A stretch of DNA of 64,000 nt from a virus: positions 18,745-82,744 of the IMG/VR virus record IMGVR_UViG_3300028840_002702. One strand, given 5' to 3'. Each line of letters begins with the position of its first letter. The first letter of the stretch is position 1. Of the stretch, positions 3 through 41,225 are shown piece by piece. The translations under genes were made by a program, and so were the position numbers. The notes under the pieces are model-generated. The model was not told the origin of the DNA and made no database searches. It saw only the letters and a program-made list of their open reading frames with translations.

Positions 3-311
3 GAAATTGCCGAGATATTAAATAACCAAGGATTTGATGTAATTTGTACGTTTATAACACCTCAATATTCACATCATAAGCTTTTACGTTCTCTTATTAC
101 TAGAATTAAATTAATTCATATTGATACTCCTGTAAAAATTTGTGAAGAAAGAGATATTAAAGGTATGTGGGCAAAAGCTAAACAGGGAAAAATTAAAGGT
201 TTTACTGGATATGATTCATGTTTTGAAATTCCCAATGCTGATTTACGTATAGATACAACACAATCGATCGAAAAATGTGTTAAAGAAATTTTTAAAATAT
301 ATGAAGGCTAA
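3..311 (+). CDS. cysC: Adenylyl-sulfate (APS) kinase, C-terminal part
   Basis: About 102 residues are readable; the gene enters from the left edge, so its N-terminal P-loop is outside the window. The visible part has HIDTPVKICEERD followed by KGMWAKAKQGKIKGFTG and then a DS-x-FE-x-P block, the usual C-terminal half of APS kinases, which phosphorylate APS with ATP to make PAPS. PAPS is the sulfate donor of sulfotransferases, and a P-loop sulfotransferase-like gene lies downstream at 4577 in the same gene train. I infer that the phage supplies activated sulfate for sulfating a glycan. Family call is firm; completeness cannot be judged. Confidence 0.88.
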   Translation, partial: EIAEILNNQGFDVICTFITPQYSHHKLLRSLITRIKLIHIDTPVKICEERDIKGMWAKAKQGKIKGFTGYDSCFEIPNADLRIDTTQSIEKCVKEIFKIYEG

Positions 312-313
312 AA

Positions 314-895
314 ATGAAAAAATATACAATTAAATTAGCAAATAAAAATGGAGAGATGTCACAAGACTCCATGCATGCTAATGATGAAAATGAATTACGT
401 ATGCTTGCAAAAATGCAGGGTATGGAACTTGTAGAAATTATGGATGAACAGGATTTAACTTTTGAAAATGTAGCTAATGTTAAATTAGATGAAAATCTTC
501 TCGATGAAAATGGTAAACTTAAACCAATGACCATCGAACAACAAGCTATGGCTGAATTAGCAGCTGAAACTAATCCTGAACTTGCAGCTCAGCTTCCACC
601 TGAAATGCGTCCTATGCAACGTGATTCTCAAGGAAATTTAATATCACCACCTCCACCACAAGTTACAGTTGCATCGAAAAAAGAAAAAGCAACTTTTTAT
701 ACTGACAAAACAACTGGTATAGAGTTTAAATTTGTTGGTGATACTGTCTATCGTAAAGATTGGATTGAAGCTGATACCGATGATTTCAAAATCATTAGAA
801 AAAAATCTAGTAGACAAATTCCAAATGAAGAAATTATTGTTTTTAAACACGATTGGATTGAAATAGAAGAAGAAAGCGGAGACGAAGATGAGTAA
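314..895 (+). CDS. Unknown protein with GspF/PilC-like N-terminal segment
   Basis: 193 residues, acidic, not recognised as a whole. The first 45 residues follow the pattern of the short N-terminal segment of type II secretion F proteins (Y-x-x-K, NKNGE, then A-x-DENELR and a QG near residue 35). The 91-aa protein at 13831 shows the same pattern more clearly. A central proline-rich stretch (PPPPQ near residue 115) links to a C-terminal part of about 75 residues with two repeats of a HDWIEIE/KDWIEAD type motif. No membrane segment is visible. It starts 2 bases after the cysC stop, with GAAGG overlapping that stop as ribosome site. Confidence 0.6.
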   Translation: MKKYTIKLANKNGEMSQDSMHANDENELRMLAKMQGMELVEIMDEQDLTFENVANVKLDENLLDENGKLKPMTIEQQAMAELAAETNPELAAQLPPEMRPMQRDSQGNLISPPPPQVTVASKKEKATFYTDKTTGIEFKFVGDTVYRKDWIEADTDDFKIIRKKSSRQIPNEEIIVFKHDWIEIEEESGDEDE

Positions 896-1709
896 AATTG
901 GCATCGGAATAATTACATGTAACAGAGAAGATTTTTTACAGACTTCATATATGTCTGTTGCAGTATCTTCTGCTATTCAATTACATGATTGTTTCGTTGT
1001 TAATGATGGTGATCCACTTAGTGATGAAACAAGAAACATTATTGGACTAAGTGATGATAACCTTATTCAACATAAGAAAAATTGCGGTGTTGCAGTATCT
1101 AAAAATAACGCATTAAAACGCATGATGGATAATGGCTGTGATCATTTATTTCTAATGGAAGATGATATCAAGTTAACTAATATTTCAACTATTCCAAAAT
1201 ATATTGAAGTTGCAGAAAAGTCTGGTATTCAACATCTTAACTACGGCGGTCATGGAATTTATAATAGAACTAAACAAGGTGAAATTGTAACTCGTGCGAC
1301 TGTTAAAGTTAAAGATAGTGATATTAGTTTAAATCTTTACTATAATATTCTTGGTGCTTTTTCGTATTATTCAAGAGAAGTAATTGAAAAAGTTGGTTAT
1401 ATGGACGAAACTTTTCATAATGCTATGGAACATGTTGATCATACATATCAGATTATTAAAGCAGGATTTCATCCTCCATATTGGTGGTTTGCTGATCTTG
1501 CTAATAGCTGGGAATATATCGATGATATTAAACCATTCCATCAAGAAAGTGTAATTAGAAAAAATCATGATGAGTGGATGGAGAATTATAAAATTGCTTC
1601 AGAATATTTTGCAACTAAAAATGGTCACTTTCCAACAGCTGTTCCTGATCCTGGACAAGCTGTTGTTGGACAATCACTTAAATTTTTGAGAGATAAATAT
1701 GGAAATTAA
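888..1709 (+). CDS. Family 2-type (GT-A) glycosyltransferase
   Basis: 273 residues. It opens with a GIGIITCNRE strand typical of GT2 enzymes, followed by VVNDGD and, at residues 91-93, an EDD metal/nucleotide-sugar binding motif in FLMEDDIKL. A second half with EHVDHTY resembles the acceptor side of such enzymes. The protein at 1699 is a clear paralog (GVGIITYKRE, EDD at 87-89) and the one at 15654 a more distant one. The reading frame overlaps the upstream gene by 8 bases, with GGAG ahead of the ATG, so translation is probably coupled. The sugar and acceptor cannot be read from sequence. Confidence 0.85.
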   Translation: MSKIGIGIITCNREDFLQTSYMSVAVSSAIQLHDCFVVNDGDPLSDETRNIIGLSDDNLIQHKKNCGVAVSKNNALKRMMDNGCDHLFLMEDDIKLTNISTIPKYIEVAEKSGIQHLNYGGHGIYNRTKQGEIVTRATVKVKDSDISLNLYYNILGAFSYYSREVIEKVGYMDETFHNAMEHVDHTYQIIKAGFHPPYWWFADLANSWEYIDDIKPFHQESVIRKNHDEWMENYKIASEYFATKNGHFPTAVPDPGQAVVGQSLKFLRDKYGN

Positions 1710-2478
1710 AAGTAAAATTGGTGTTGGAATAATTACTTATAAACGTGAAAAAATGTTTAATGAAACATTAGACACAATTCCACGCGATAAAGTTCACCAT
1801 ATCGTAGCTGTTAATGACAGCCCTGATGTTAAATATAACTTTGAAGATAAAGATGTTCAGTATATAGAAAATAAAGTTAATCAAGGTGTTGGTATCTCAA
1901 AAAATATTGCTTTGACTAAGCTTATTAATGCTGGATGTACTCATCTTTTTATTATTGAAGACGACATTCTAATTAAAGATCCAGATGTATTTGAATATTT
2001 TATTAAATGTGCAGCAGAATCTGGAATTTGGCATTTGAATTATGGTCATACCGGATCAAAACAAATAATTCATAGAAAGAAATATGACGAACAAGAATTG
2101 ATATTCTATCCAGATCCTCAGGGTGGATTTCAATATTTTCATATCACATTGATTAATAAGTTTAAAGGTTTTGATCCAGTGTATAAGAATGCATTTGAAC
2201 ATGCAGATTATACTTATGTGTTAACAAAGGCTGGATTAATGCCACCATTTTGGTGTTTTCCTTGTCCAGCAGAACCTGAAAATTACATAGAAATTAATGG
2301 AGATTATGAAGAATCTACCATTACTGATAAACCTATGTATAAAGAAAATTATAGTACGTCGGCACAACACTGGGTTCAAAAACATGGATCTTTTGTCTCG
2401 GCAATTCCAAGACCAACTATAAATGATGTTGAAATAAGCCTTAAAAAAATTAAAGAAATGTATAGCGTGGGAAAATAA
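1699..2478 (+). CDS. Family 2-type (GT-A) glycosyltransferase, paralog of 888 gene
   Basis: 259 residues, aligned end to end with the preceding protein: SKIGVGIITYKRE at the start, AVNDSP, SKNIALTKL, then FIIEDDI with EDD at residues 87-89, and EHADYTY in the second half. It overlaps the upstream gene by 11 bases. The tandem pair looks like a local duplication that diverged, consistent with two successive sugar transfers on one glycan, which is inference. No membrane segment, so it probably acts in the cytoplasm. Confidence 0.84.
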   Translation: MEIKSKIGVGIITYKREKMFNETLDTIPRDKVHHIVAVNDSPDVKYNFEDKDVQYIENKVNQGVGISKNIALTKLINAGCTHLFIIEDDILIKDPDVFEYFIKCAAESGIWHLNYGHTGSKQIIHRKKYDEQELIFYPDPQGGFQYFHITLINKFKGFDPVYKNAFEHADYTYVLTKAGLMPPFWCFPCPAEPENYIEINGDYEESTITDKPMYKENYSTSAQHWVQKHGSFVSAIPRPTINDVEISLKKIKEMYSVGK

Positions 2479-2479
2479 A

Positions 2480-3940
2480 ATGATTGATTTTTCAAATGTA
2501 ACATTTATATATCACTATAGAAAAGACTGTGACGAACGTCTTGAAAATTTAAAGATTTCACTTGGATATTACAAAGAGCATTTTAAAGATGTTGAAGTAA
2601 TTTTAGTAGAAGATGATAAAGCATTAACTATTGATAAAGAAAAAGAACTTATGTCTATGATTGATAAAGTATTCTTTTTGAAAAATAGTGGTGTTTATGC
2701 TCGACCAGCTAGTTATAATGTTGCTGCTAAGTTATCTACTAGACCAATTATTATGACTATGGATACTGATGTTATTCTTAAACCTGAATATCTTGAAAAA
2801 GCTATTAAACTTCTTGATAATGAAAAAATTGGTATGATTATTCCTTATAATGGCATTGTGATTAATACTGATCAAACAATTAAAGATAAGTTTAAAGAAA
2901 ATGCTAATTATGATATTCTATTAGATTATGTTCCAAAGCAATTTGATATTCTTTATAAAGAAGAACATACTCAAATTCAACACAATAGAAGTGTTGGCGG
3001 TATTACAATTTTTAAGAAAGACCGTTACAATGATTTTGGTGGTTATAATCCAAACTTTCTTGGTTGGGGATTTGAAGACAATGAACTTGTTTGCCGTATT
3101 AAGAAAATGGGTTATGAAATTGGTCGTATTAATAATAAAGATGCTTGGATTTGGCATTTAACTCATCCTGGAACAATTAAAAATAATCATCCATTCTATG
3201 ATAATAATCAAAAAATTAATAATGCGGTTACTCGAATGAATAAAGAAGAATTGCGTTTATATATTGATTCTTGGATGAAAAATGCAAGTGCTGAATTTGC
3301 TGAAATGATTAAAGGAAAACGTGTTGCAGTTGTTGGTCCAGCACCTCATATTGTTGGATCTAAACAACGTGAACTTATTGATTCTTATGATATTGTTGTA
3401 CGTATCAATAAAGCTCTTCCAATTCCAGAACATTTACAAGTTGATATTGGAACAAAAACTGATCTTCTTTATAATTGTCTTAATACTTGGGATGAATGTG
3501 GCGGAGCATATAATATTGATCTTTGGAAAAAAAGTGGAGCTCAATGGGTTATTTGCCCATATCCACCAATTAAACCATTTGATGTTGATATCAAAAAATT
3601 TATAAATCATAATAATAATCGTATTCCATTTAGACATTTTCCAATTGGTCCATATAATGAGTTATTTAAAACTTTAGGTACACGACCAAATTCTGGTTAT
3701 TTGGCAATTCTTGATTTATTAATGTATGATATTGAAGAACTTTATATTACAGGATTTTCCTTCTTTAAAGGTGGCTATTATCCAGAATATAGACAAAAGA
3801 ATGAACAACAAGTAATGGACTTTATGTCTAAAGGATGTGGTCACAAACAAGGTCCACAGATTGAACATTTTAAAGCTTTAATGAGAAAAGATAGTCGAAT
3901 TAAAGTTGATGATTATTTAAAGGATATGTTAAATGATTAA
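2480..3940 (+). CDS. Two-domain glycosyltransferase: GT-A plus GT29 (sialyltransferase-like)
   Basis: 486 residues. Residues 1 to about 265 form a GT-A domain with DTD at 95-97 and the FGGYNPNFLGWGFEDNE block near 186-202 that is typical of the GT7 C-terminal/GT2 type. Residues about 278-486 are GT29-like: a sialyl-motif-L-like block (VAVVGPAP, then IDSYDIVVRIN) and a second block GTRPNSG followed by EELYITGFSF, resembling sialyl motif S. The 711-aa protein at 10058 has the same GT29 half. GT29 enzymes use CMP-sialic acid or CMP-Kdo-type donors, and a CMP-sugar synthetase is encoded at 9399. Confidence 0.8.
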   Translation: MIDFSNVTFIYHYRKDCDERLENLKISLGYYKEHFKDVEVILVEDDKALTIDKEKELMSMIDKVFFLKNSGVYARPASYNVAAKLSTRPIIMTMDTDVILKPEYLEKAIKLLDNEKIGMIIPYNGIVINTDQTIKDKFKENANYDILLDYVPKQFDILYKEEHTQIQHNRSVGGITIFKKDRYNDFGGYNPNFLGWGFEDNELVCRIKKMGYEIGRINNKDAWIWHLTHPGTIKNNHPFYDNNQKINNAVTRMNKEELRLYIDSWMKNASAEFAEMIKGKRVAVVGPAPHIVGSKQRELIDSYDIVVRINKALPIPEHLQVDIGTKTDLLYNCLNTWDECGGAYNIDLWKKSGAQWVICPYPPIKPFDVDIKKFINHNNNRIPFRHFPIGPYNELFKTLGTRPNSGYLAILDLLMYDIEELYITGFSFFKGGYYPEYRQKNEQQVMDFMSKGCGHKQGPQIEHFKALMRKDSRIKVDDYLKDMLND

Positions 3941-4580
3941 AAATACATTAAAGATAAATATAGATTTATCAACAGCTACCAAATATGATAAACTTATAGG
4001 AAATTTAAGTAAAAATATGTATGGAAGAATATGTGAAGCCCCAGCAGTTCATATTCTTCCAATAATAAAAGATTATATGGGAGATAAATGTAAAGTTTAT
4101 GTTGAAACTGGATCTTTATTCGGAGGATCTTTAATATTATTAATGCAAGATGAAACACCATGTGAATTTATTGGTATTGATTTATTTGATGGTTATTACG
4201 ATAAAGATATAGATCCAGTATCAAAATTAACTTTATGTGTAGATGATGTTCATAAAAATATTGAAAAATATAATAAACATGAACATAAATATACTCTTAT
4301 TAAAGGAAGTTCATATGATCTAAACACTGTAGAAAAATTTAGAAGTTTAGGAAAAAGTATTGATCTATTATTTATTGACGGAGATCATTCTGAAATAGGT
4401 GTTCTTGGTGATTATAATTCTTATAAGGAATTTGTAAATAAAGACGGATTAATTATGTTCGATAATTATGAATCATGTTGGAAAGAAGTAAAACCAACAG
4501 TTGATTCAATTGATTTTGAAAATGATGGATTTCAAAAAATAGGTCAATATGGACAAGCATTAATAGTTAAGAAAAAATGA
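3933..4580 (+). CDS. SAM-dependent methyltransferase-like protein (Methyltransf_24 type)
   Basis: 215 residues. A Rossmann-like methyltransferase core is visible: VYVETGSLFGGSLIL as motif I, IGIDLFDGYYD as the acidic end of strand 2, then LLFIDGDHSEIGVLGDY and GLIMFDN, the pattern of macrocin- or CmcI-like sugar O-methyltransferases. It overlaps the upstream gene by 8 bases and the next by an ATGA. Surrounded by glycosyltransferases, it probably methylates a sugar, which is inference from context. Confidence 0.75.
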   Translation: MIKNTLKINIDLSTATKYDKLIGNLSKNMYGRICEAPAVHILPIIKDYMGDKCKVYVETGSLFGGSLILLMQDETPCEFIGIDLFDGYYDKDIDPVSKLTLCVDDVHKNIEKYNKHEHKYTLIKGSSYDLNTVEKFRSLGKSIDLLFIDGDHSEIGVLGDYNSYKEFVNKDGLIMFDNYESCWKEVKPTVDSIDFENDGFQKIGQYGQALIVKKK

Positions 4581-5275
4581 GTTATACATTAAAAATATAT
4601 GGTGAAAGATGTTCTGGTACTAATTATCTTAAAGAGCTTTTAAAGAAAAATATCAAAGAACAAGTTTATATGCATACAGATAAAAATCATATAGTTAATT
4701 ATTGGAAACATGCATGTCCTGAAGAAATTAAAAGTACCGAACGTTTTACAGTAAAAGGCGATAAAATTTTATATATTTTTATCATACGTGAGTTAGATTC
4801 ATGGTTAAAATCATTTTTCAAATATCAATATCATCTTGTAAAGAAAAAATATTTTAAACAATTTGTAAAAGATCCATTTGTTGTTAAACATACACATAAA
4901 GACTATTTTTCAAATAAGTCTATTAATTTTGATGATGAAGATAAAACAGTTTTTGAATTAAGATATTATAAGATAAATTCTTATTTAGAATTTGCAAAAA
5001 CACACGATTGTATTTTTGTTAATCTTTATTGGTTGCAACAAAATTATAAGAAATTTTTTGATATAATAAAAGAAAATTTTTCTGATATTAGAATTAATGA
5101 AAATATTGTAAATATTGATAAACATACAAAAACAAAAAATTCTATTAAAAATAGAACATATAATGATATTGATATAGAAGAAGTAAGAAATTTAATATCA
5201 AATCAGACTGATAAAATTATGGAAGATTTTGTAAATAATTTAACTTATAAAATAGAGAAAAATGGAGAGAAATAA
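4577..5275 (+). CDS. Sulfotransferase-like P-loop protein
   Basis: 232 residues. The N-terminus has a strand followed by GERCSGTNYLKELL (residues 9-22), matching the 5'-phosphosulfate-binding loop of PAPS-dependent sulfotransferases, and a later strand YIFIIRELDSWLKSFFKY resembles the 3'-phosphate-binding R-x7-S region. The rest is lysine-rich and divergent. The APS kinase at the left edge makes PAPS, the expected donor, and the gene sits among glycosyltransferases, so sulfation of a sugar is the simplest role. It overlaps the upstream gene by ATGA and ends in TAATG with the next. Confidence 0.68.
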   Translation: MSYTLKIYGERCSGTNYLKELLKKNIKEQVYMHTDKNHIVNYWKHACPEEIKSTERFTVKGDKILYIFIIRELDSWLKSFFKYQYHLVKKKYFKQFVKDPFVVKHTHKDYFSNKSINFDDEDKTVFELRYYKINSYLEFAKTHDCIFVNLYWLQQNYKKFFDIIKENFSDIRINENIVNIDKHTKTKNSIKNRTYNDIDIEEVRNLISNQTDKIMEDFVNNLTYKIEKNGEK

Positions 5276-6282
5276 TGAAACCAATTATTACATTATTGGG
5301 TTATACAGGATCAAATCATTCACATTATTGGCCACAGCTAAGATTTTTTGACGTTTTTAAACATGCTGGTTATGATGTTGAATGGGTAAATATGAATGAA
5401 GTTCGCCAGACAAATCGCCCAAGAATTTATATTACATGGAATCAACCTGCATGTGATATAGTCGTTGCAAGAGGTCTTTATAACCATAAGCGTGGAGATG
5501 TAATTATTCAGAAATTAACTTCACTTGGAGCTGGTGATGATCATGTTAATTGGGGAAATGATGCAATGGGTTTCTTCCAAAAATGGTCTTGGAATACTTA
5601 TAAACGTGTAGAATATTTTTATGATATGGGTGTAAATATTCATGCTTTTGGTTGTAAAACAGTATCTGAACCATTTCCTGAAAAACATCGTATAGTATCA
5701 AAACTTGGTGATAGAGTTCATTGGTTTAATTGGGGTCCTTGTCTTTATGATTATAATGAACTTCAAAATATGAAACCAATTATAACTGATTTTAAATATG
5801 ATATTGGTTATGTTGGAATGAAGTGGGGATCAGTTGGTCGTGGAAATATTGATTCATGGGAAACTTATATTGATCCATTAGTAAAAGAATTTTCAAATAA
5901 TGCTTTAGCTGGTGCTGGAAATCCAATGGGTCAAGTTAGTAATGAAGTTCATAAAGAAATTTTAACACAGTCTAGATTATGTCCAATTATGCACTGTCCT
6001 TCATGGATTGCAGAACAAGGTTGCCAAGATAGAACATATACTGTATTTGCATCTGGTAGATTTGGTGTTATTGATAATCCAGGAATTTACGAGTTCTTCG
6101 ATGAAAAAGAAGTTGTATGTGAAACAGATCCGGGTGAATATTTTGAGAAATCAAAATACTTTGCTAATAATATAGATGCACAGATTCCTTATATTGAAAC
6201 ATTCCAAAAACGTATTAAGGAAGAGCTTAATTTCTATGTCACATGGCCTAGAATTATAGAAAAGGTTTGGAAGGAAAATTAA
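5275..6282 (+). CDS. GT-B glycosyltransferase (CgeB/group 1-like)
   Basis: 335 residues. The N-terminal half begins with a strand (ITLLGYTGSNHSHYWP) and contains GAGDDHVNWG. The C-terminal half has a strand KYDIGYVGMKWGS and the block TYTVFASGRFGVIDNPGIY followed by VCETDPGEYFEKSKYF, which is the donor-binding end of CgeB-like GT-B enzymes (asymmetric glycan cluster enzymes and relatives). A good GGAGAG ribosome site sits inside the end of the upstream gene. The donor and acceptor are unknown. Confidence 0.7.
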   Translation: MKPIITLLGYTGSNHSHYWPQLRFFDVFKHAGYDVEWVNMNEVRQTNRPRIYITWNQPACDIVVARGLYNHKRGDVIIQKLTSLGAGDDHVNWGNDAMGFFQKWSWNTYKRVEYFYDMGVNIHAFGCKTVSEPFPEKHRIVSKLGDRVHWFNWGPCLYDYNELQNMKPIITDFKYDIGYVGMKWGSVGRGNIDSWETYIDPLVKEFSNNALAGAGNPMGQVSNEVHKEILTQSRLCPIMHCPSWIAEQGCQDRTYTVFASGRFGVIDNPGIYEFFDEKEVVCETDPGEYFEKSKYFANNIDAQIPYIETFQKRIKEELNFYVTWPRIIEKVWKEN

Positions 6283-6283
6283 G

Positions 6284-7093
6284 ATGAGTTTAATAAGTCA
6301 AAAAGAATATGATAAACTTCCAAATAAAGAAGATTATACTGCTCTATCAGGTGTTATTCCATTAAATAACGAAATAGTTTATATACATAATGACGAAATT
6401 ATAGTAGATCAAGATACATATCATAACTGTAATTGTATGTCTGTTGCTACTGGTGACGAAACATTCGAAGAAGAATTTTCAATGAGAACTTTTCCTCCAT
6501 CATTAAACGATAATGAATGGTGGAGGATTGGTGAGGATCCAGATCCTATAAAACAAAAGTTAAAACTACATCTAGGTTGTGGTAATAAACATATTGACGG
6601 TTATACAAATATCGATTGTAGATATCAACCAGGTGTAGATAAAATTGATAATGTTCAATATCTTCGTAGTTATAAAGAATGTAGCATAGATGAAATTTAT
6701 GCTTGTCATGTTCTTGAACATGTTGGCAGATGGAATTATCTAGATACGCTTAAACGTTGGTTTAATCTTTTAAAACCTGGTGCTAAACTTTATATTGCAG
6801 TTCCTGATTTTGAAGCGATTGCCGAATATTATATCAAAAATAAGAAAAGTCAACAAGATATTATTGGTCTTCTTTACGGCGGTCAAGATTACGAAGGTAA
6901 TATTCATACATACTGTTGGGACTTTAAACAACTTTCAATTGATTTAGCTTCTCTTGGATTTAAAGATATTAAACGTTATGATTGGCGAGAAACTGATCAT
7001 GCACATATTGACGATTTTTCTCAATGTTACTTGCCTCATATGGACAAAGAAAACGGAACATTAATGAGTTTAAATGTGGTTGCAACAAAATGA
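6284..7093 (+). CDS. SAM-dependent methyltransferase with N-terminal extension
   Basis: 269 residues. The first 90 residues are an extra region without recognised motif. From residue 93 a class I methyltransferase starts: LHLGCGN (95-101, motif I), YTNIDCR, then CHVLEHVGRWN and LLKPGAKLYIAVPDF, the order found in Methyltransf_11 proteins. A C-terminal tail ends in MSLNVVATK. In an LPS/capsule-type cluster this family methylates sugars; that role is inferred. AAGGA precedes the ATG at 6284. Confidence 0.75.
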   Translation: MSLISQKEYDKLPNKEDYTALSGVIPLNNEIVYIHNDEIIVDQDTYHNCNCMSVATGDETFEEEFSMRTFPPSLNDNEWWRIGEDPDPIKQKLKLHLGCGNKHIDGYTNIDCRYQPGVDKIDNVQYLRSYKECSIDEIYACHVLEHVGRWNYLDTLKRWFNLLKPGAKLYIAVPDFEAIAEYYIKNKKSQQDIIGLLYGGQDYEGNIHTYCWDFKQLSIDLASLGFKDIKRYDWRETDHAHIDDFSQCYLPHMDKENGTLMSLNVVATK

Positions 7094-7950
7094 TTAGAGT
7101 AGCACTTAAAAATTTTTGGAAAACATGTCCAAATGAAAAGTTTGCGATGGATATGTTGGCACCAATGCAAAATGATTTCGATATTGTTTACGACGAAGAA
7201 AATCCTGATATCGAAATCTGCTCTACTTTTGGCACTGAACCTCTTAATCCAAAAATTATTAGTGTTTTTTGGGCTATGGAAGGTATCTGGGATATTAAAA
7301 AGTTCGATATATCAAAGTATGATTATGCATTTTACTTCTTTCCAGAATCTATGGTCAATGATCCTAAATATTGTAGAATTAATATGGTTTCACCAGGACT
7401 AGTTGGTCCACGAAATATTAATATTAACGAAGTAAAATTAACACATACTAAATTTTGCAATTTTATTTATAGTCATCCTGTTCCATTTAGAAACGAAATG
7501 TGTGGGGTAATATCTCAATATAAACGTGTAGATGCACCCGGATGTTGTATGAATAATATGGAACCAATTGGAAAACATAGTGATCCATGGACAAGTAGAA
7601 ATTCTAGTTCTTGGGTAAATGAAAAATTTGAGTTTCTTAAGCAATATAAATTTACAATTGCATGTGAAAATCATAGTCTTCCAGGATATGTTACTGAAAA
7701 AATTATTCAACCATTAAATGCAAATAGCATTCCGCTATATTGGGGTAATCCATATATCGCTTTAGATTATAATCCAAAAGCTTTTATTAATTATTATGAC
7801 TTTGGAAATATGATTGATTTTGTCAAAAAAATCAAAGAAGTCGATAATGATAATAAATTGTATGAAGCAATGCTACATGAACCAAAAGCATTTCAGCATA
7901 ATCAACAACGTAGTATAGATCATTGGGCAAAAATTTTGTTATCAGTTTAG
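7090..7950 (+). CDS. GT10 alpha-1,3-fucosyltransferase-like protein
   Basis: 286 residues from the ATG at 7090, which overlaps the upstream stop as ATGA; an upstream in-frame start at 7024 would only overlap the previous gene. From about residue 190 the protein has the family's acceptor/donor block: FTIACENHSLPGYVTEKI, then PLYWGNP and AFIN, nearly identical in layout to GT10 enzymes, which use GDP-fucose. The N-terminal half has the expected WAMEGIW and YAFYFFPES strands. A second GT10 gene follows at 7995. No GDP-fucose pathway gene was recognised in the window. Confidence 0.85.
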   Translation: MIRVALKNFWKTCPNEKFAMDMLAPMQNDFDIVYDEENPDIEICSTFGTEPLNPKIISVFWAMEGIWDIKKFDISKYDYAFYFFPESMVNDPKYCRINMVSPGLVGPRNININEVKLTHTKFCNFIYSHPVPFRNEMCGVISQYKRVDAPGCCMNNMEPIGKHSDPWTSRNSSSWVNEKFEFLKQYKFTIACENHSLPGYVTEKIIQPLNANSIPLYWGNPYIALDYNPKAFINYYDFGNMIDFVKKIKEVDNDNKLYEAMLHEPKAFQHNQQRSIDHWAKILLSV

Positions 7951-7981
7951 TTTACATTGAAAAAAATTAGATTATAATAAT
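7951..7981 (+). promoter_or_regulatory. Early-type phage promoter ahead of 7995 gene
   Basis: TTTACATT, 13 bases, TTATAATAAT, ending 14 bases before the start codon at 7995. It fits the TTTACTTT-N13-TTATATTATA pattern seen at 16 other places here and lies in the first real gap of the glycan cluster. Confidence 0.6.
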
Positions 7982-7994
7982 CAAAGAGGTTAAT

Positions 7995-8813: not shown

Positions 8814-8814
8814 T

Positions 8815-9399
8815 ATGCATGGACATATTTTAATACTCGAAAATAAAGATACTATGAAAGACAATATTGTTGGTGGTATTTTGGTAGAAATTGGATCTGA
8901 TAGAGCATCTGGATCTACTAAAGCATTAGCTCAAATGGCTAAAGAATTTGATATGGATTTCTATACTGTTGATCCAGACGAAGGTGCGTATGAACGTTCA
9001 ACAAATATTCTTAAAAATATTGATGAAGATTTTAAAGCTGTACAAGATCTTGGTGAAAATTTCTTAGATAAATTTGATGGTGAAATTAATTTGATTTATA
9101 TGGATGCGTTTGATAATGTATTAGAAAATTGGCCACATAAACAAGCAACAATTGATACTTATAAGAAACGTGGTGTTGATCTTAATAATGAAAATTCTTG
9201 GAAAATGCATCTAGAGGCATGTCAAAATGCGATTGATAAAATTCCAGTTGGATGCTATATTTGTTTTGATGATACAGTTCAACGTGGCAATGAATGGGAA
9301 GGCAAAGGTAAATTAGCAATTCCATTCTTATTAAAAAATGGTTTTGATATTATTGATAATGACTATAATAATTGTCTAATACTTCAGAAGGAAAAATAA
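8815..9399 (+). CDS. Class I methyltransferase-like protein
   Basis: 194 residues from the ATG at 8815, with AAGGA upstream. It has ILVEIGSDRASGSTKAL as a plausible motif I, FYTVDPDE as the acidic loop after strand 2, INLIYMDAFD and YICFDDT as strands 4 and 5. This is the layout of SAM-dependent methyltransferases acting on small molecules or sugars, though motif I lacks a second canonical glycine. The next gene starts inside its stop codon. Function beyond the fold is not visible. Confidence 0.62.
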   Translation: MHGHILILENKDTMKDNIVGGILVEIGSDRASGSTKALAQMAKEFDMDFYTVDPDEGAYERSTNILKNIDEDFKAVQDLGENFLDKFDGEINLIYMDAFDNVLENWPHKQATIDTYKKRGVDLNNENSWKMHLEACQNAIDKIPVGCYICFDDTVQRGNEWEGKGKLAIPFLLKNGFDIIDNDYNNCLILQKEK

Positions 9400-10061
9400 T
9401 GGCCCATAAAATTTTTATTCCAATTAAGGCGGAATCGCAAAGAGTACCTGGAAAAAATTTCAGAGATTTTCATGGTAAACCTTTATGGAAACATACATTA
9501 GATAAATTAGTAGATTATGATGTATACGTAGATACAGATTCTGGTGTTTTAGTAAGAGAACTTGAAGAAACATACGAAAATGTAACTGTAATTCCAAGAC
9601 GTCAAATGCATATAGGAAATGATGTTCCTGTTAATTGGTTGCTTGGTTATTTTGCAAATGAATGTCATGAAGACGATATCGTAGCACAAGTTCACGTAAC
9701 ATCTCCATTCTTAAAAGCTGAAACGCTTGATAAAATATTTAAAATGTTTGAAGGTGGTGGAGTTGATTCAGTAGCAACTGTTGATGTTATTCAAGCAAGA
9801 TGTTGGCGAACAGAAGCACCGAAAAGATTTATTCCAATTAACCATGATCCAGAGATTCTTGAACAAACACAAGATATTAATCCTGTTTATGTTGAGAATT
9901 CTTTAGTTTATGCGTTTCATGTTAGTCATTTTTTGAATACGCGAAATAGATTTAGTGGAGCTTATAAGCTCTTTTATGAAACACAATTTCCTGAAAGTTT
10001 AGATATTGATACAGAAGCAGATTGGGATTTGTGTGTTAAAATGGGAGAAATTTACAAATGA
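9399..10061 (+). CDS. CMP-sugar synthetase (NeuA/KdsB-like cytidylyltransferase)
   Basis: 220 residues from the ATG at 9399, which overlaps the previous stop. The start IFIPIKAESQRVPGKNFRD is the CTP-binding loop of CMP-N-acetylneuraminate synthetases (I-P-x-R/K-x-x-S-x-R-x-P-x-K-N); QVHVTSPFLKAETLDK and a C-terminal FPESLDIDTEADWDLC complete the family pattern. It should activate a nonulosonic or similar keto-sugar acid with CTP. GT29-type domains at 2480 and 10058 are natural users of the CMP-sugar, and the latter gene overlaps this one by 4 bases. The exact sugar is unknown; no NeuB was seen in the window. Confidence 0.85.
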   Translation: MAHKIFIPIKAESQRVPGKNFRDFHGKPLWKHTLDKLVDYDVYVDTDSGVLVRELEETYENVTVIPRRQMHIGNDVPVNWLLGYFANECHEDDIVAQVHVTSPFLKAETLDKIFKMFEGGGVDSVATVDVIQARCWRTEAPKRFIPINHDPEILEQTQDINPVYVENSLVYAFHVSHFLNTRNRFSGAYKLFYETQFPESLDIDTEADWDLCVKMGEIYK

Positions 10062-12193
10062 ATAATGGTAATGGATTGAAATTTATTTTTGGCATTAAAG
10101 CTTTAGATCCATATAAGACAAGAAGATTAATAGAACAATTTGAACAAACACGTAGTAAAAATACTAATTGGCTTCTTATTGTAGCATATAATAGATTTGA
10201 TTCAGAAGTTTGTGAAATTGTTAGTATGCTTGATAATCTAACAAAAGTTGAAACAATCGCTCTAAATTGTATTAATAATCCAGGTCAAATGACTAATAAG
10301 ATTTTTAAAGAAGCCAGTAAATATGAATTTGATTATGGTTTTATTGCAAGTGATTCTGTTCAATTTAAAAAAGAAGGCTGGGATGGTCTTTATTATAATG
10401 CATCAAATTATACAAATTATGACTGCTTATATTTCTATGATCAAGAAAACCCAGTTTGTAATGAGACTCCTCGTAATTGGAGCCCTGTTATTAATAGATG
10501 TCAATTAAAGCATGTTAGAGATACATTTTTTACTTTTACAAAATATTCTCTTAACAAAGTTGGTTATTATGATTTAGAAAATATGCCAATATTAGCAGCA
10601 CACGATTTCTTTTTAAGAGCTGCTGATCTAAGTTTCAACGATAAATATGATCCTTATGATGCATTTAATAGTGAGCAATACGTAAAAGCTGATCCAGAAT
10701 TTCCACCATTTGCAGGCGTTGATTCACCAGAACTTAAGAGAATGAGTCAACCACGTACATCACATAGAGTCGAATTTAAAAGTATTTATGATAAACTTTT
10801 CGATTGTGATAAGATTGTAACATTTGTTATGTGTCTTAAAGAACGATCTGATCGTGCAATGAAATCTATTAAAAGTGTTGTAACAGCGGCAAATTTAAAA
10901 TATATGGATTTTATCATTGTTGAAGATAAAAGTCTTGATCAATTAGATCTTTCGAAGTTTAAATATGTTGATAAAATCAAACATTATGTTGTTAACACTG
11001 GTGATTCTTGGAATAGATCAAAGCTTTTAAATTTTGGATTTAAACGTGCAACAACACCATTAATCGCAAGTTGGGATTGTGACATTCTATTTCCTAAAGC
11101 TTTTGGGAAAAAATTAAAAGAAGTTTGTGATCCACTTGATTTTGAAAGAAATATTATGAAAATTAATTCAAAAGAATCTGCAGAATGTTTCGTTAATGGT
11201 ACTCTTTATGAAAAGGGAGCGATTAGAGGCGGAATGTGGTTATATGATAAAAATGTTCTTGAATCAGTTGGTGGATATGACGAAGCATTTGTAGAATGGG
11301 GTCATGAAGAAATGGATATTCATGAACGTCTTGAACGAGCTCGTCAAACTAATATTATTGAAATGAAAGATATTAATATAGATTTAATTCTTACTCATAT
11401 TTCTCATAGTGATTCTTTACGTGGTGATTGTGTTAATAATCATAGAAATCATGATATTCGCTGTGCTCATAAACATTATGGAATTACAAATGTTAATCAT
11501 AATGGTTGGGGTCAACTTCCAATTTTAAGAAAAAGAAGTACTGATACAGCGTATGCTAATTTTCTTAAAGGAAAACGTGTTGCAGTTGTTGGTCCAGCAC
11601 CTTCTATTATTGGATCTAAACAAAGAAAATTAATAGATTCTTATGATGTAGTTGTTCGTATAAATAAAGCAATGCCAGTTCCAAAGAATCTTTATAAAGA
11701 TACTGGCGGTCGATGTGATGTACTTTATAATTGTATGAATACAAGTGAAGAATGTGGTGGAACTATTGATTTTATCGCATTAAAAAAAGGTAAAACAAAA
11801 TGGATTGCTTGTCCTTATCCAAAAGCTGGTGAATTTGAAAAAGATGTAACTAAATTTGAACAAATAAATCCCAAGTTTCCATTTCATGTAATTGATACTG
11901 AAAGATACTTTGCTGTTGAAAATTATATTGGAACACGTCCAAATACAGGAATTGGTACAATTCTTGACTTACTTGATCACGACATTGAAGAACTTTATAT
12001 AACTGGATTTACATTTTTCCAAGGTGGTTATCATGAACATTACCGTGGTTATACTGAAGAACATGTAATGGATTTTATGGCTCAATATGGAAAACACGAT
12101 CAAGAACCTCAGAAGAATTTAATTAAAGAACTATATTTGTATGATCCTCGTATTAATGTAGATGAAACACTTAAAGAAATTTTGGAGAGATAA
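10058..12193 (+). CDS. Three-domain glycosyltransferase: GT-A, GT-A and GT29
   Basis: 711 residues. Residues 1 to about 235 are a divergent GT-A-like domain (FGIKALDPYKTRRL, FIASDS); about 250-470 a second GT-A domain with FIIVEDKS, a DCD motif near 340-342 and FVEWGHEEMDIHERL; about 503-711 a GT29 domain (VAVVGPAPSIIGSKQ, IDSYDVVVRIN, GTRPNTG, EELYITGFTF). The last two domains match the two of the protein at 2480, so one gene is a longer version of the other. The overlap with the CMP-sugar synthetase suggests coupled expression of donor and transferase. Confidence 0.8.
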   Translation: MNNGNGLKFIFGIKALDPYKTRRLIEQFEQTRSKNTNWLLIVAYNRFDSEVCEIVSMLDNLTKVETIALNCINNPGQMTNKIFKEASKYEFDYGFIASDSVQFKKEGWDGLYYNASNYTNYDCLYFYDQENPVCNETPRNWSPVINRCQLKHVRDTFFTFTKYSLNKVGYYDLENMPILAAHDFFLRAADLSFNDKYDPYDAFNSEQYVKADPEFPPFAGVDSPELKRMSQPRTSHRVEFKSIYDKLFDCDKIVTFVMCLKERSDRAMKSIKSVVTAANLKYMDFIIVEDKSLDQLDLSKFKYVDKIKHYVVNTGDSWNRSKLLNFGFKRATTPLIASWDCDILFPKAFGKKLKEVCDPLDFERNIMKINSKESAECFVNGTLYEKGAIRGGMWLYDKNVLESVGGYDEAFVEWGHEEMDIHERLERARQTNIIEMKDINIDLILTHISHSDSLRGDCVNNHRNHDIRCAHKHYGITNVNHNGWGQLPILRKRSTDTAYANFLKGKRVAVVGPAPSIIGSKQRKLIDSYDVVVRINKAMPVPKNLYKDTGGRCDVLYNCMNTSEECGGTIDFIALKKGKTKWIACPYPKAGEFEKDVTKFEQINPKFPFHVIDTERYFAVENYIGTRPNTGIGTILDLLDHDIEELYITGFTFFQGGYHEHYRGYTEEHVMDFMAQYGKHDQEPQKNLIKELYLYDPRINVDETLKEILER

Positions 12194-12194
12194 T

Positions 12195-12941
12195 ATGCCA
12201 ATACGTTCCGAAAATTATAATGCTCGTCAAGATATCAACTTATGGCAACAAATTCCATCTACGGTAGTAACTGAAATATATACACAATTTACTAGAGTAA
12301 ATGGAATCGTATTTGATTTAGAACATGGTTGTTTTAACGATGAAACTTTATATTCGTGTATTCAAGTTGCATGTCTTGGTAAAAAACGTCCAATAGTTAG
12401 ACTTCCTTATTTAGATAAAGGTAGATTAAGAATGTGTTTAGATGCTGGTGTTGGTGGTGTAATTCTATCAACAGTTGAAACTAAAAAACAAGCACAAAAA
12501 TTTCTTGATGAATGTCTTTATTCTAGAAAACGAGGTCAGGGACTTGTTCGTCAAAATATGTGGAATGATGCTATGATAGCAGATGGTAGAAATTATATTG
12601 ACAATCATTTACAAATTATTCCACAGATCGAAACTAAGAAAGGTGTAGAAAATATTGACAAAATTTATGATAAGCGATTTACTTATTATATGGTTGGCCC
12701 TTATGATCTATCCGCAAGTTATGGATGTGCTGGTAATTTTGAAGCTCCAGAATTTCAAAATGCAATGTCTAAATTGGGACAAAAATTAGGTGAGGATGGT
12801 AAATTAGCTTTCCATCTTGTTAAAGATATAACTAAATCAAAAGTATATGCTAAGGCTGATTGTGGAATGCTAGCACTTGGCATGGATACAATTTTTTTAA
12901 ATGAAGGAATGGAACAATGTATAAAGATAGTATCGCGGTAA
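12195..12941 (+). CDS. HpcH/HpaI-family aldolase
   Basis: 248 residues from the ATG at 12195 with GGAGAG upstream. The family blocks appear in order: GIVFDLEHG, VRLPYLDKG, CLDAGVGGVILSTVET, IIPQIETKKGVENID and MVGPYDLSASYG. The glutamate of PQIET and the aspartate of GPYDLSAS are the metal ligands of HpcH/HpaI class II aldolases, which make or split 2-keto acids from pyruvate and an aldehyde. Paired with a 2-hydroxyacid dehydrogenase next door, it may supply a keto- or hydroxy-acid substituent for the glycan; that is inference. Confidence 0.82.
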   Translation: MPIRSENYNARQDINLWQQIPSTVVTEIYTQFTRVNGIVFDLEHGCFNDETLYSCIQVACLGKKRPIVRLPYLDKGRLRMCLDAGVGGVILSTVETKKQAQKFLDECLYSRKRGQGLVRQNMWNDAMIADGRNYIDNHLQIIPQIETKKGVENIDKIYDKRFTYYMVGPYDLSASYGCAGNFEAPEFQNAMSKLGQKLGEDGKLAFHLVKDITKSKVYAKADCGMLALGMDTIFLNEGMEQCIKIVSR

Positions 12942-13831
12942 CATCAAAAACATTATCAAATCAAGAAGGATTTGTTAAATGGCTTAAAAGACATTTTAAA
13001 GAAGTTAAATTAAATCAAAGTGATAAATTACGTGATGAAAAACTTATAGAGTTTTTATCTGATGTAGATTATGTTGTACTTGGTACTGAACCATTCCATA
13101 AAGATATTATCAAAAATACTAAAAATTTAAAGGCGGTCTTTAAATATGGAGTTGGTATTGATAACATCGATTTCTTTGTTGCTGGTAAAAATAATCTTCC
13201 TATTTATTATAAGAAAGGTACAAATAGTGATGCTGTTACTGAAATTGCTTTAAGTTATATTATTCAATTATTGAGAAATCAACATATTAGTTTTGCCGCT
13301 GCCCGAAATGGTTGTTGGGATAAACAAAAGGGTAAAGAACTATCTGAATCAATTATTGGAATTATCGGTTTTGGTAATATTGGTCAATGTCTAAATACTA
13401 AACTTACTAGTCTTTTATGTTATGATATCTTATGGCATGATAAAAACAATCATAAAAATTCAATTTGTAACAAAGATTTAGAATTTGTTTTAAGTAACGC
13501 TGATGTTATTTCAATTCATATTGATAATGAAGATAGAATGAATACTAATTTCTTTGACGATGAAAAATTAAGTCTTCTTAAAGATGGTGCATATATTGTC
13601 AATACAGCACGTGGTTCTATAATGGATTATGATGCGCTTGAAAAACATCTTCCAAGACTTGGAGGAGTTGCATTAGACGTTTATCCTTATGAACCTAATA
13701 TTCCTGAATTTTTATTGGATTCTGACAAAGTTATTTTATCATGTCATATTTGCGGAAGTTCAGAACAAGGTTTGAAGAATGGTGAAGAGTTTATTAAAGA
13801 AAGTATTAAAACTCATATGGAGAAAAAATAA
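12917..13831 (+). CDS. D-isomer-specific 2-hydroxyacid dehydrogenase
   Basis: 304 residues. It has the NAD-binding GFGNIG loop in IIGIIGFGNIGQCL, the catalytic arginine in NTARGSIMD, an acidic residue in DVYPYEPNIPE and the catalytic histidine in SCHICGSS, the set found in phosphoglycerate dehydrogenase-like enzymes. It overlaps the aldolase by 25 bases with GAAGGA upstream. It should reduce a 2-keto acid to a D-2-hydroxy acid, perhaps the aldolase product. Such a pair is unusual in a phage and supports a host-like carbohydrate pathway origin. Confidence 0.85.
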   Translation: MYKDSIAVTSKTLSNQEGFVKWLKRHFKEVKLNQSDKLRDEKLIEFLSDVDYVVLGTEPFHKDIIKNTKNLKAVFKYGVGIDNIDFFVAGKNNLPIYYKKGTNSDAVTEIALSYIIQLLRNQHISFAAARNGCWDKQKGKELSESIIGIIGFGNIGQCLNTKLTSLLCYDILWHDKNNHKNSICNKDLEFVLSNADVISIHIDNEDRMNTNFFDDEKLSLLKDGAYIVNTARGSIMDYDALEKHLPRLGGVALDVYPYEPNIPEFLLDSDKVILSCHICGSSEQGLKNGEEFIKESIKTHMEKK

Positions 13832-14106
13832 TGAAGTGTTATAAATATACTGCAATGGATGCTCAAGGAAAAGAGAAAAGTGGAAATATAGATGCTGAGA
13901 ATGAAAATGATGCTAATGCTAAATTGAAAGAAATCGGTCTTTTTCCTACAAGTATTTCTAAAATAAAAACACCTAAGCAACCATCTGAAGAAGATAAAAA
14001 ATCTACTATAGAACAAATTTTTGACAATTCCCTTATCAGAGAACCTGAAAAAATCAAAATTAAACTTTTCGGGTTAATTACAGTACTAACAATAGAGAAA
14101 AACTAA
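13831..14106 (+). CDS. Small protein with GspF/PilC N-terminal-like segment
   Basis: 91 residues. Residues 3-45 match the N-terminal segment of type II secretion/type IV pilus F proteins: Y-x-Y-x-A-M-D-A-x-G-K-E, then GNIDAENENDANAKL and a G-L-F-P-x-S-I block. The usual membrane domain is absent; the C-terminal half is charged and ends in a hydrophobic strand LFGLITVLTIEK. Its start codon shares one base with the dehydrogenase stop. In GspF this segment is cytoplasmic and of unclear role, so no function is assigned. The 314 gene carries a weaker version. Confidence 0.6.
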   Translation: MKCYKYTAMDAQGKEKSGNIDAENENDANAKLKEIGLFPTSISKIKTPKQPSEEDKKSTIEQIFDNSLIREPEKIKIKLFGLITVLTIEKN

Positions 14107-14108
14107 AT

Positions 14109-14381
14109 ATGGAATGGATTAAAGAAGACGTAGAAAAAATATCTGAGATGTTTGATATTACCAAAGAAGAAGTTATGGATTTAGAATGTTTTAGTCTAGA
14201 CCTTACAGATGATGAAATGGAACAACTAACAGAAGATATTCGCGATCTTGAATATGATGTTGAAGAAGGTAAAGGAACGTGCAAATTATGTTTTGATAAT
14301 CCATCTTCATTTCTTACCGCAACAGAAGCTTATGATGAATTCTATGGTTATGAACCATCTGATATTTCATTTGACGAATAA
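14109..14381 (+). CDS. Small acidic protein of unknown function
   Basis: 90 residues, strongly acidic (many Asp/Glu in the middle), with two cysteines in C-K-L-C. Predicted helical from the spacing of leucines and isoleucines. It begins 2 bases after the previous stop and ends the first gene train before an 83-base gap. Not recognised. Confidence 0.6.
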   Translation: MEWIKEDVEKISEMFDITKEEVMDLECFSLDLTDDEMEQLTEDIRDLEYDVEEGKGTCKLCFDNPSSFLTATEAYDEFYGYEPSDISFDE

Positions 14382-14464
14382 AAATATTAAAAAGTTTTGT
14401 GAAGAGTTTATTTTTACGAGATTTGGTTTATCTATAAACAATTAAAATATTTTTAGGAGTCTTT

Positions 14465-15652
14465 ATGCTTTCACAATATAATGTTATAACACACCCCGCT
14501 GATAACGGAGGTTGTGGACATTACCGAATGAAATTTCCAGCTTGGGCAGCACAATCTTTGCGTAAAGATATTAGCATAGTTGAATCACCCAAGCTAATTC
14601 ATATCCCAGGATTTTATCAAGACGTTAGAATGGTACGCATTCAGCGCCAATTAGCAGATTATTCATTTAAATTTGTACTTGAGTTTCTAAAGCCATTATC
14701 CGAAAAAATTGGATTTTGGCTTTCTTATGAAATTGATGATGTTGTTGGACGTCATGATATTCCACGCTATAATTCCGGTTGGCAAACATTTCAGAATGAT
14801 AAACTCATGATGAATATGAAATATATTTTGCAACTCTGCGATGTAGTTACTGTTACAACACCGGAACTTGGTAATTATTATCATAGAAAATTTGGTGTTG
14901 ATAAAAATAATATCATAGTAATTCCAAACTATCTTCCAAGATGGTGGATTGGTGAAAGTTATGATTTGGAAAAAATCAAAGCTAAAATTCAATCTGAACA
15001 TAAACCTAGAATTGGATTTATTAGTTCATCTACTCATTTTGATCTATTTAATAGAAATGATGGTGTTGATGATTTTACACATATCGTAGATTTTATTAGA
15101 GATACTGTTGATAAATATCGGTGGGTATTTATCGGTGGGGTTCCACAACAACTAAAAGATTTAGTTGAAGATAAAAAGATTGAATTTAATCCCGGTTTTG
15201 ATATTTTGAATTATACGCGAATTGTTAATAGTATGAAGTTTGACTTAATGGTTGCTCCTCTTCAAGATAATGTTTTTAATAGATGTAAATCTAATATCAA
15301 ATTTATTGAAATGGCCGCACTTGGTATTCCTTGTATTGTTCAAGATTTAACTCCATACAAAAAATATACTGATCTTCGCTTTACTGATGCAAATGATCTT
15401 CAAGATAAGATTGATTTTGTATTATCTAATAAAGAAAGATATCTTGACCTCGTTAAAAATAATCGTGACATCATTGATAATGGTGATTCTAACGCACCAA
15501 AAGGATGGTGGCTCGAAAATAATATGGATGTTTGGTTCCAACAATTTTGTGTTAATCAACGTTCATTACGTTTTGATTTAAGAGAAATTAATTTCGAAGA
15601 AATAACTCCGGAAAATAAAAATAACGCCGGTGAAATAACGTTTGAGGTTTAA
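14465..15652 (+). CDS. GT-B glycosyltransferase (group 1/GT4-like)
   Basis: 395 residues. The N-terminus has NGGCGHYRMKFPAW, the glycine-rich acceptor-side loop of GT-B enzymes. The C-terminal half has RIGFISSSTHFD, WVFIGGVP, MVAPLQDNVFN, then KSNIKFIEMAALGIPCIVQD, the donor-binding E-x7-E-like region. TTAGGAGT precedes the ATG, and the gap upstream has TTTACGAG and CTATAAAC but not the standard spacing, so a promoter there is uncertain. It overlaps no upstream gene and leads the pair with the GT-A gene at 15654. Confidence 0.78.
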   Translation: MLSQYNVITHPADNGGCGHYRMKFPAWAAQSLRKDISIVESPKLIHIPGFYQDVRMVRIQRQLADYSFKFVLEFLKPLSEKIGFWLSYEIDDVVGRHDIPRYNSGWQTFQNDKLMMNMKYILQLCDVVTVTTPELGNYYHRKFGVDKNNIIVIPNYLPRWWIGESYDLEKIKAKIQSEHKPRIGFISSSTHFDLFNRNDGVDDFTHIVDFIRDTVDKYRWVFIGGVPQQLKDLVEDKKIEFNPGFDILNYTRIVNSMKFDLMVAPLQDNVFNRCKSNIKFIEMAALGIPCIVQDLTPYKKYTDLRFTDANDLQDKIDFVLSNKERYLDLVKNNRDIIDNGDSNAPKGWWLENNMDVWFQQFCVNQRSLRFDLREINFEEITPENKNNAGEITFEV

Positions 15653-15653
15653 G

Positions 15654-16361
15654 ATGCAAGATATTTTATGTGGAATTTTAAATTATGGTAGAACCCATAA
15701 AGATATGAAAAAAGTACCCAATAAGATAAAGGGTGATGTCGTTATTTGTACCGATAATCCTGAATTTTGGGGTAAAAGAGAAACAATTGCAGCTGAAGAA
15801 TCTGTTGCAGCTAGTAAAAATAAGATTATAGATTTAGCTATTGAACGTGGTTATAAATATGTGTTTATTATAGAAGATGACATTATTCCAAAGAATAAAA
15901 GTCTTTTTCTTGAATATAAACAAATGATGCAAAAATATGATTTATGTGGTATTATGTATGGTTATGATACTCCAATGAATAAAGTATTTGGAAAAAGACC
16001 TAATGCATCACTTATAATTACTGATCATCAAGGACATATAGTAAATATTAATCGCTATCCTTGTTCATCTTTTATTGGCTTAAAAGTTAAACCTGACATG
16101 GTTAAATTTGATGAACAACTTTGTATTTTGGAAACAGATTTTTTGTTTATTGATATGCATAAAAAGGGTGATCACCCATTTAATGGCTTCTTTTTTGACA
16201 TATCAAAAAGCTGGGAAAAATTTAAGAAAATTGATGTTAAAAGTATTCGTAAGAAAAATCTTAATATGATTAATAAAGACCGTGAAGTAAGAAAAAAATG
16301 CGAAATTAAGCCAGATTTTTCTGCTGATGCAGTCCTCAAATATATGAACGAACACAGGTAA
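15654..16361 (+). CDS. GT-A glycosyltransferase (GT2-like)
   Basis: 235 residues from the ATG at 15654, preceded by GAGG; an in-frame TTG at 15642 lies inside the upstream gene and is less likely. It shows ICTDNP, SKNKIIDLAIERGYKYVFIIEDDI with EDD at 74-76, and a central strand with CSSFIGLKV. This is the same EDD-type GT-A fold as the proteins at 888 and 1699, but shorter. It is the last gene of the sugar cluster before the cochaperonin. Confidence 0.75.
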   Translation: MQDILCGILNYGRTHKDMKKVPNKIKGDVVICTDNPEFWGKRETIAAEESVAASKNKIIDLAIERGYKYVFIIEDDIIPKNKSLFLEYKQMMQKYDLCGIMYGYDTPMNKVFGKRPNASLIITDHQGHIVNINRYPCSSFIGLKVKPDMVKFDEQLCILETDFLFIDMHKKGDHPFNGFFFDISKSWEKFKKIDVKSIRKKNLNMINKDREVRKKCEIKPDFSADAVLKYMNEHR

Positions 16362-16365
16362 AAAC

Positions 16366-16746: not shown

Positions 16747-16747
16747 T

Positions 16748-30171: not shown

Positions 30172-30193
30172 CATTTTAATAATTGAGGACTAA

Positions 30194-31480: not shown

Positions 31481-31483
31481 CAG

Positions 31484-39777: not shown

Positions 39778-39786
39778 GAATATAAA

Positions 39787-41215: not shown

Positions 41216-41225
41216 TCAACAAACG

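Follow-up and report, generated by a model that had tools for sequence, protein, structure and literature searches.

Polysaccharide gene clusters are already known in phages such as P-SSM2. The T4-like cyanophages P-SSM2, S-SSM7, and S-SM2 carry large lipopolysaccharide (LPS) gene clusters, for which alteration of the host surface has been proposed (PMC2984593, PMC3037559). A 2010 comparison left these cyanophage polysaccharide clusters as either working genes or 'stuffer DNA' (PMC3037559). Here we describe a cluster of 19 genes in the 82,744-base IMG/VR virus record IMGVR_UViG_3300028840_002702. The window, the whole stretch of 64,000 nucleotides that was analysed, spans bases 18745–82744 of that record, and positions below are those of the window. 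The cluster genes follow one another head to tail along the + strand (314–16361), immediately downstream of an adenosine 5′-phosphosulfate (APS) kinase gene. An original prediction, made from the sequence alone, read this train as a complete phage-encoded glycan pathway with sialyl-, fucosyl-, and sulfo-type chemistry. Among the new points, the strongest is a virus-specific module of an aldolase, a cytidine monophosphate (CMP)-sugar synthetase, and GT29-fold transferases, rather than the fucosyl or sulfo chemistry.

Synthetase, aldolase, and GT29-fold domains

Cluster genes were annotated by Pfam, PHROG, NCBIfam, and PDB searches. The CMP-sugar synthetase is grouped with an aldolase and a 2-hydroxyacid dehydrogenase, both of which had been overlooked. 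The synthetase (9399–10061, +) is a NeuA/PseF-type CTP_transf_3 protein (PF02348, 8e-15). The nearest solved structure is CMP-NeuAc synthetase 1qwj (1.4e-10), in agreement with the earlier assignment, and the protein is closer to NeuA than to KdsB. No isolated-phage record matches it. The HpcH/HpaI-family class II pyruvate aldolase (12195–12941, +; PF03328 9e-15, 54.9 bits against a cut-off of 25; PDB HpaI 9e-19) matches only two Staphylococcus records among isolated phages, at 28% identity. Residues H46, R71, E148, and D173 (numbered from the codon at 12189) are invariant in the aldolase alignment; we take this His, Arg, Glu, and Asp to be the catalytic and metal-binding residues of HpaI. The overlapping dehydrogenase (12917–13831, +) is a SerA-like D-2-hydroxyacid dehydrogenase (PF02826, 1e-31). 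Neither NeuB (PF03102) nor a KdsA/DAHP-type synthase (PF00793) was found in the 82.7-kb record, while controls were positive in 9 and 11 genomes. The aldolase appears to occupy the place of the usual sialic-acid synthase.

Two fusion proteins share a GT2/GT7-plus-GT29 design. One (2480–3940, +; PF02709 2.7e-13, PF00777 1.2e-6) ends in a GT29-fold domain at 3281–3940, and the other (10058–12193, +), which has an extra N-terminal domain and a PF02709 match over cut-off, ends in one at 11537–12193. They are 34% identical overall and 51% in their GT29 parts. Both GT29 domains score above the PF00777 cut-off (28.6 and 24.5 bits against 23), in an alignment that covers the sialylmotif L part of the profile only. 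In the PDB, phmmer matches pig ST3Gal-I (E = 3e-4). Structure prediction confirmed the fold: an AlphaFold2 model built on 28 homologues has a predicted local distance difference test (pLDDT) score of 94.6, and all of the best 35 Foldseek matches in the PDB are GT29 or GT42 sialyltransferases (best E 2e-7), among them ST8SiaIII, ST3Gal-I, ST6GalNAc2, ST6Gal1, and Campylobacter CstI and CstII. The template modelling (TM) scores are moderate, about 0.5–0.6; the fold is therefore shared with these enzymes, but the window enzyme has diverged. His188 is invariant across the 28 homologues and aligns, by alignment rather than structure superposition, with the sialylmotif VS His, which has been described as the catalytic base (PMC10225777). 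The animal sialylmotif III, HYYE, is not recognisable in the window GT29 domains. Both fusions carry a GT29-fold domain, and they may use CMP-sialic acid.

Cyanophage proteins are homologous to the GT2/GT7 part of the fusion (21–28% identity), and only two isolated-phage records match the GT29 domain. A culturable relative, the isolated Stenotrophomonas phage DLP6 (L083), has a GT29-like gene, annotated as hypothetical, amid methyltransferase and glycosyltransferase genes.

A recurrent viral module and a viral aldolase clade

The query for viral relatives combined the window GT29 domains with their phage homologues (huge-phage and DLP6) in one alignment. An alignment of the window pair alone was too narrow a query, and single queries (the GT29 fusion, PolB, and the gene at 4577) returned nothing or distant matches. 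GT29-like proteins are encoded in 285 IMG/VR contig stretches. With this number, and the LPS clusters of P-SSM2 and S-SSM7, the earlier view that LPS or capsule clusters are a more typical home than phages for such a gene set is not fully accurate. In 80 of these stretches, taken as the GT29-anchored set, the synthetase occurs in 53, SIS and/or HAD in 44, the aldolase in 19, and NeuB in 8. Because the SIS/HAD profile also picks up SIS-only or HAD-only proteins, these counts mean 'SIS and/or HAD' throughout. Part of this set went into building the profiles, and its counts lack independence for that reason.

A second sample of 75 viral loci anchored on the aldolase contains the synthetase in 62, GT29 in 49, SIS and/or HAD in 48, the dehydrogenase in 18, and NeuB in 4. 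After dereplication (n = 50) the numbers are 41, 29, 34, and 11 for synthetase, GT29, SIS and/or HAD, and dehydrogenase, respectively, and a late-sigma gene lies nearby in 22 contigs. The two sets overlap in some contigs, and the cleanest contrast is with 75 nrdJ loci, which had been found as phage relatives via nrdJ and then served as a negative control: every profile gave 0/75. nrdJ was discarded as a lineage tracer, its 75 loci being without cluster genes save weak matches in L017 and L023. Gene order is also kept. GT29, synthetase, aldolase, and dehydrogenase stand in one row, near the window order, in L236, L237, and L288, and in L220, L257, L264, and L273 a homologue of the window methyltransferase at 8815–9399 separates the synthetase from the aldolase. 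CMP-sugar synthetase, aldolase, and GT29 thus form a recurrent viral module, which SIS/HAD or the dehydrogenase often joins. At L221:6819–8420, the dehydrogenase and GT29 profiles match one open frame, a possible fusion. Strict exclusion of aldolase and NeuB, suggested by their joint absence from the GT29-anchored set (0/80), was withdrawn after the second sample (4/75); two mapped loci with both have separate synthetase copies.

In 22 GT29 loci with a synthetase, neither aldolase nor NeuB is present. Several such loci (L089–L109, L131, L134, L155) encode a 3-dehydroquinate-synthase-like protein, a short-chain dehydrogenase/reductase, and a class III aminotransferase, recognised by eye rather than by profile, which hints that the same GT29-synthetase core may be served by yet another donor route. 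For the genes of the window cluster, PMC searches turned up no paper that brings them together; most subscription papers do not appear there.

Scanning genomes with the aldolase alignment gave 52 prokaryotic loci, of which approximately 10 have a strong synthetase and dehydrogenase near the aldolase; a similar aldolase-synthetase-dehydrogenase group therefore exists in cellular genomes too. Prokaryotic loci with related aldolases resemble surface-polysaccharide clusters, with sulfotransferases (L165, L167, L186) and MptE/GT42-like proteins (MptE-like in L167 and L186). In a maximum-likelihood tree, a single strongly supported clade, viral almost throughout, contains the window aldolase and 49 viral ones; a long branch (support 100/96) separates it from the other cellular sequences, and the window protein falls inside a viral subclade (95/80). 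Only three metagenome-assembled genome contigs fall within the clade, two short and one of 50 kb, and these could themselves be viral.

Remaining cluster genes and phage surroundings

The cluster belongs to a single dense + strand train, as described before, that runs from 314 to 19075 with intergenic gaps of −25 to +83 nt and takes in groES and nrdJ. None of the cluster proteins contains a transmembrane stretch, and Pfam searches among them gave no match to an exporter or lipid-carrier enzyme. The APS kinase gene (CysC) is cut by the window edge (1–311, +; the whole gene is 18555–19055 of the record) and scores above both its NCBIfam and Pfam cut-offs (TIGR00455 148.3 bits against 138.7; PF01583 4e-42; PDB PAPSS1 7.5e-33). 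Between it and the first glycosyltransferases is a 193-residue protein (314–895, +) without a Pfam match.

The further glycosyltransferases, at least five as originally counted, comprise three GT2-like paralogues (888–1709, phrog_2456 1.5e-28; 1699–2478, phrog_2456 2.3e-28; and a weak third at 15642–16361, phrog_2456 3e-5), a GT4-type enzyme (14465–15652, phrog_7162 7.9e-24), and a Glyco_trans_1_2-like protein (5275–6282, PF13524 1e-4, below cut-off), all on the + strand. Three + strand methyltransferase-like genes are likewise present, one above its Pfam cut-off and two weaker: an S-adenosylmethionine methyltransferase of the Methyltransf_24 type (3933–4580, PF13578 6e-12), with a homologue beside the same cassette in L167; a second at 6284–7093 (PF13489 2e-4, phrog_6636 2.5e-9), with homologues in GT29 viral loci; and the recurrent aldolase-cassette partner at 8815–9399 (PF13578 0.0017), whose homologue adjoins the aldolase in L165 (3.8e-55). 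Two small proteins (13831–14106 and 14109–14381, +) were assigned to no family.

The three chemistries named at the outset fared unevenly. For the sialyl type, the transferase and synthetase folds stand, whereas the record holds no sialic acid synthase. One GT10 alpha-1,3-fucosyltransferase-type enzyme is clear (7090–7950, +; PF00852 5e-15, above cut-off; H. pylori FucT 6.5e-20), but the second is weak, falling just under the cut-off (7995–8813, +; 21.5 bits against 23.9). No gene for the phage's own supply of guanosine diphosphate (GDP)-fucose, of the GDP-mannose dehydratase type (PF16363), was found in the record (control positive in 14/14), and GDP-fucose is possibly supplied by the host. 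The sulfo type retains the APS kinase only: the proposed sulfotransferase (4577–5275, +) lacks any match in Pfam, the PDB, or phage and viral sequences, its single-sequence structure model, at a pLDDT of 38.5, lends no fold support, and the only hint of such a function is an N-terminal P-loop-like RCSGTN motif. No ATP-sulfurylase gene was found in the record, with positive controls. With these genes, NeuB, and a KdsA-type synthase missing from the 82.7-kb record, which may be a fragment, completeness of the set is not supported.

Phage genes flank the cluster on both sides. In the upstream part of the record (L002), profile searches identify baseplate and tail-collar genes on the − strand, followed by a + strand run of late sigma gp55-like (phrog_234, 1.5e-32), gp47/SbcD-like, gp46/SbcC-like, and APS kinase genes. 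Downstream are a GroES-like gene (16366–16746, +; PF00166 2e-7), the first phage housekeeping gene past the cluster, and the class II ribonucleotide reductase gene nrdJ (16748–19075, +), at most 62% identical to IMG/VR contigs. The PolB of the record is ∼30% identical to polymerases of T4-type cyanophages, and the baseplate wedge is ∼25% identical. Homologues of gp55, gp46, gp47, the wedge, and PolB thus lie in the same record as the polysaccharide cluster, and by sequence the source is a deeply diverged T4-type phage.

Elsewhere in the window, 22461–22853 encodes a YspA/SLOG-type protein (PF10686 4.5e-12), and 22846–23934 a HldE-C/glycerol-3-phosphate cytidylyltransferase-like domain (TIGR02199 2.6e-14) followed in its second half by what resembles, by eye, a heptose-phosphate-type GHMP kinase, possibly a second nucleotide-sugar enzyme outside the cluster. 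A macro domain protein is encoded at 34228–34845 (PF01661 9e-9). Within 38709–53620, eight or more small genes that look like paralogues have in common an N-terminus of the type NKF..KY..LLEAFK.P (38709, 39181, 39787, 40329, 45717, 49704, 50243, and 53030, the last on the − strand). Guanine-cytosine (GC) content reaches 0.445 at 42001–44000, against ∼0.32 elsewhere.

Proposed pathway, alternatives, and known systems

We lean towards reading the locus as a phage operon with an aldolase-based route to a CMP-ulosonic acid, GT29 transfer, and a host-envelope glycan as the likeliest target. A soluble enzyme set would build and decorate the glycan in the host cytosol. The aldolase would form a 2-keto (ulosonic) acid by condensing an aldose with pyruvate or hydroxypyruvate; the NeuA-like enzyme would turn this acid into a CMP-sugar for transfer by the two GT29-fold domains. 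The GT10 and GT2/4/7-type enzymes would add further sugars, the methyltransferases would cap sugars, and sulfation may draw on 3′-phosphoadenosine 5′-phosphosulfate (PAPS) from the APS kinase. APS itself, any lipid carrier or exporter, and GDP-fucose (should the GT10 use it as donor) would have to come from the host. Since the cluster proteins lack transmembrane stretches, the acceptor must be within reach of the cytosol, as host lipid-linked glycans, virion proteins, or DNA would be. We rank the host envelope first because related prokaryotic loci resemble surface-polysaccharide clusters and the cyanophage LPS clusters are the nearest precedent; by this analogy the host surface is a likelier target than virion or DNA, and an altered infected-cell surface might, for example, hinder superinfection. 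A broader proposal, which we hold more tentatively and at a little under even weight, is that viruses evolved their own route, in which a virus-specific HpcH/HpaI clade takes over from NeuB/KdsA and partners a NeuA-like synthetase and transferases of GT29 fold. It would be an acidic-sugar module common to many tailed phages, possibly for a sugar not known from cells.

Several points weigh against the proposed pathway. The substrate of an HpaI-family aldolase cannot be told from sequence, and this protein scores under the equivalog cut-offs set for HpaI, for GarL, and for the rhamnonate aldolase. The dehydrogenase fits no obvious step and is not tied to the aldolase alone, since it also accompanies NeuB-linked synthetases (L245 and L252). 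This record showed no SIS/HAD partner of the kind that accompanies most viral aldolases, the sulfotransferase was not confirmed, and the glycan acceptor is one that we infer. Aldolase and NeuB are not strict alternatives, and the record may be a fragment of the full genome, so that NeuB could lie elsewhere. A rival is the standard nonulosonic acid pathway, in which a NeuB/PseI-type synthase is encoded by the missing genome part or by the host, while aldolase and dehydrogenase serve or recycle another sugar. NeuB does occur in 8/80 GT29-anchored loci and together with the aldolase in 4/75, and the huge phage LR756508 has NeuB and four GT29. Yet the aldolase shares an operon with synthetase and GT29, both in the window and in many other viral loci, and it never meets NeuB in the 80 GT29 loci; we judge this pathway unlikely.

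The same enzymes might instead modify phage structural proteins (capsid, tail, or fibres), which we regard as somewhat unlikely. Soluble cluster proteins with no exporter or lipid-carrier matches suit a cytosolic protein acceptor, the paralogous GT2-like genes belong to phage families, and virion glycosylation is reported in mycobacteriophages (Freeman et al. 2023, as cited in PMC12619734). The donor set (CMP-acid sugar, PAPS, GT10), however, resembles envelope polysaccharide chemistry, as do the prokaryotic loci with related aldolases. That chemistry, including the APS kinase, would be unusual for DNA, and glycosyltransferases that protect phage DNA from host nucleases by hypermodification seem improbable. 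Weak matches to a TET-associated glycosyltransferase (E = 0.017) and to the T4-type DNA glucosyltransferase family (0.0056) point that way, and a C5 cytosine DNA methylase gene (PF00145 2.5e-15) lies between two glycosyltransferase-like genes (28969–32773); but this trio is 12 kb from the cluster, and no TET/JBP oxygenase was found in the record. Least credible by far is a chimera of bacterial polysaccharide genes misassembled onto a phage, which we rejected. The cluster GC content (0.26–0.31) is slightly under that to its right (0.31–0.34). Against this, the operon is continuous and overlapping from phage gp46/cysC to groES/nrdJ, the same module recurs in dozens of viral contigs, many of them with a late-sigma gene nearby, and the aldolase sits in the viral, not a prokaryotic, clade. 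The misassembly and lack of fold support that the original prediction had itself raised thus fall away, and its view of a phage-encoded glycan pathway is well supported.

If the aldolase does make an ulosonic acid, as in the proposed pathway, it would open a new route to an acidic sugar; the module would also provide sialyltransferase-like enzymes of GT29 fold that have no membrane anchor. Its three or four small soluble proteins are assayable together.

The locus shares its NeuA-type synthetase and GT29-fold transferases with the bacterial and animal CMP-N-acetylneuraminic acid (Neu5Ac)/2-keto-3-deoxynononic acid (Kdn) pathway (NeuB/NANS, NeuA/CMAS, and GT29 or GT42). It differs in having a class II pyruvate aldolase in place of a phosphoenolpyruvate-dependent synthase, and in GT29 domains that are fused to GT2/GT7-type domains and have no recognisable sialylmotif III. 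In the 3-deoxy-D-manno-octulosonic acid (Kdo) pathway (KdsD-KdsA-KdsC-KdsB), KdsD and KdsC have analogues in the SIS (weakly phosphoheptose-isomerase-like) and/or HAD proteins of most viral aldolase loci. Here, the aldolase stands for KdsA, SIS/HAD was not found in the record, and the synthetase is nearer NeuA than KdsB. The 484-kb huge phage LR756508 (L082, 314042–330518) likewise holds GT10, four GT29, and a sulfotransferase-like gene in one cluster, but it has NeuB, lacks the aldolase module, and is not syntenic with the window. Genes resembling Gmd, Fcl (both probable, by eye), and GT11 also lie there. Mycobacteriophage virion glycosylation resembles the window in its phage glycosyltransferases without export genes, but reportedly involves few transferases and no donor-sugar synthesis cassette. 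The cyanophage LPS clusters of P-SSM2, S-SSM7, and S-SM2 are alike in being big polysaccharide clusters in T4-type myoviruses, to which the window adds a synthetase without a match in any isolated phage. As to whether such clusters work or merely fill space, the small, ordered module that recurs in dozens of viral contigs, its virus-specific lineage of aldolases, and the intact catalytic residues together argue for a selected function.

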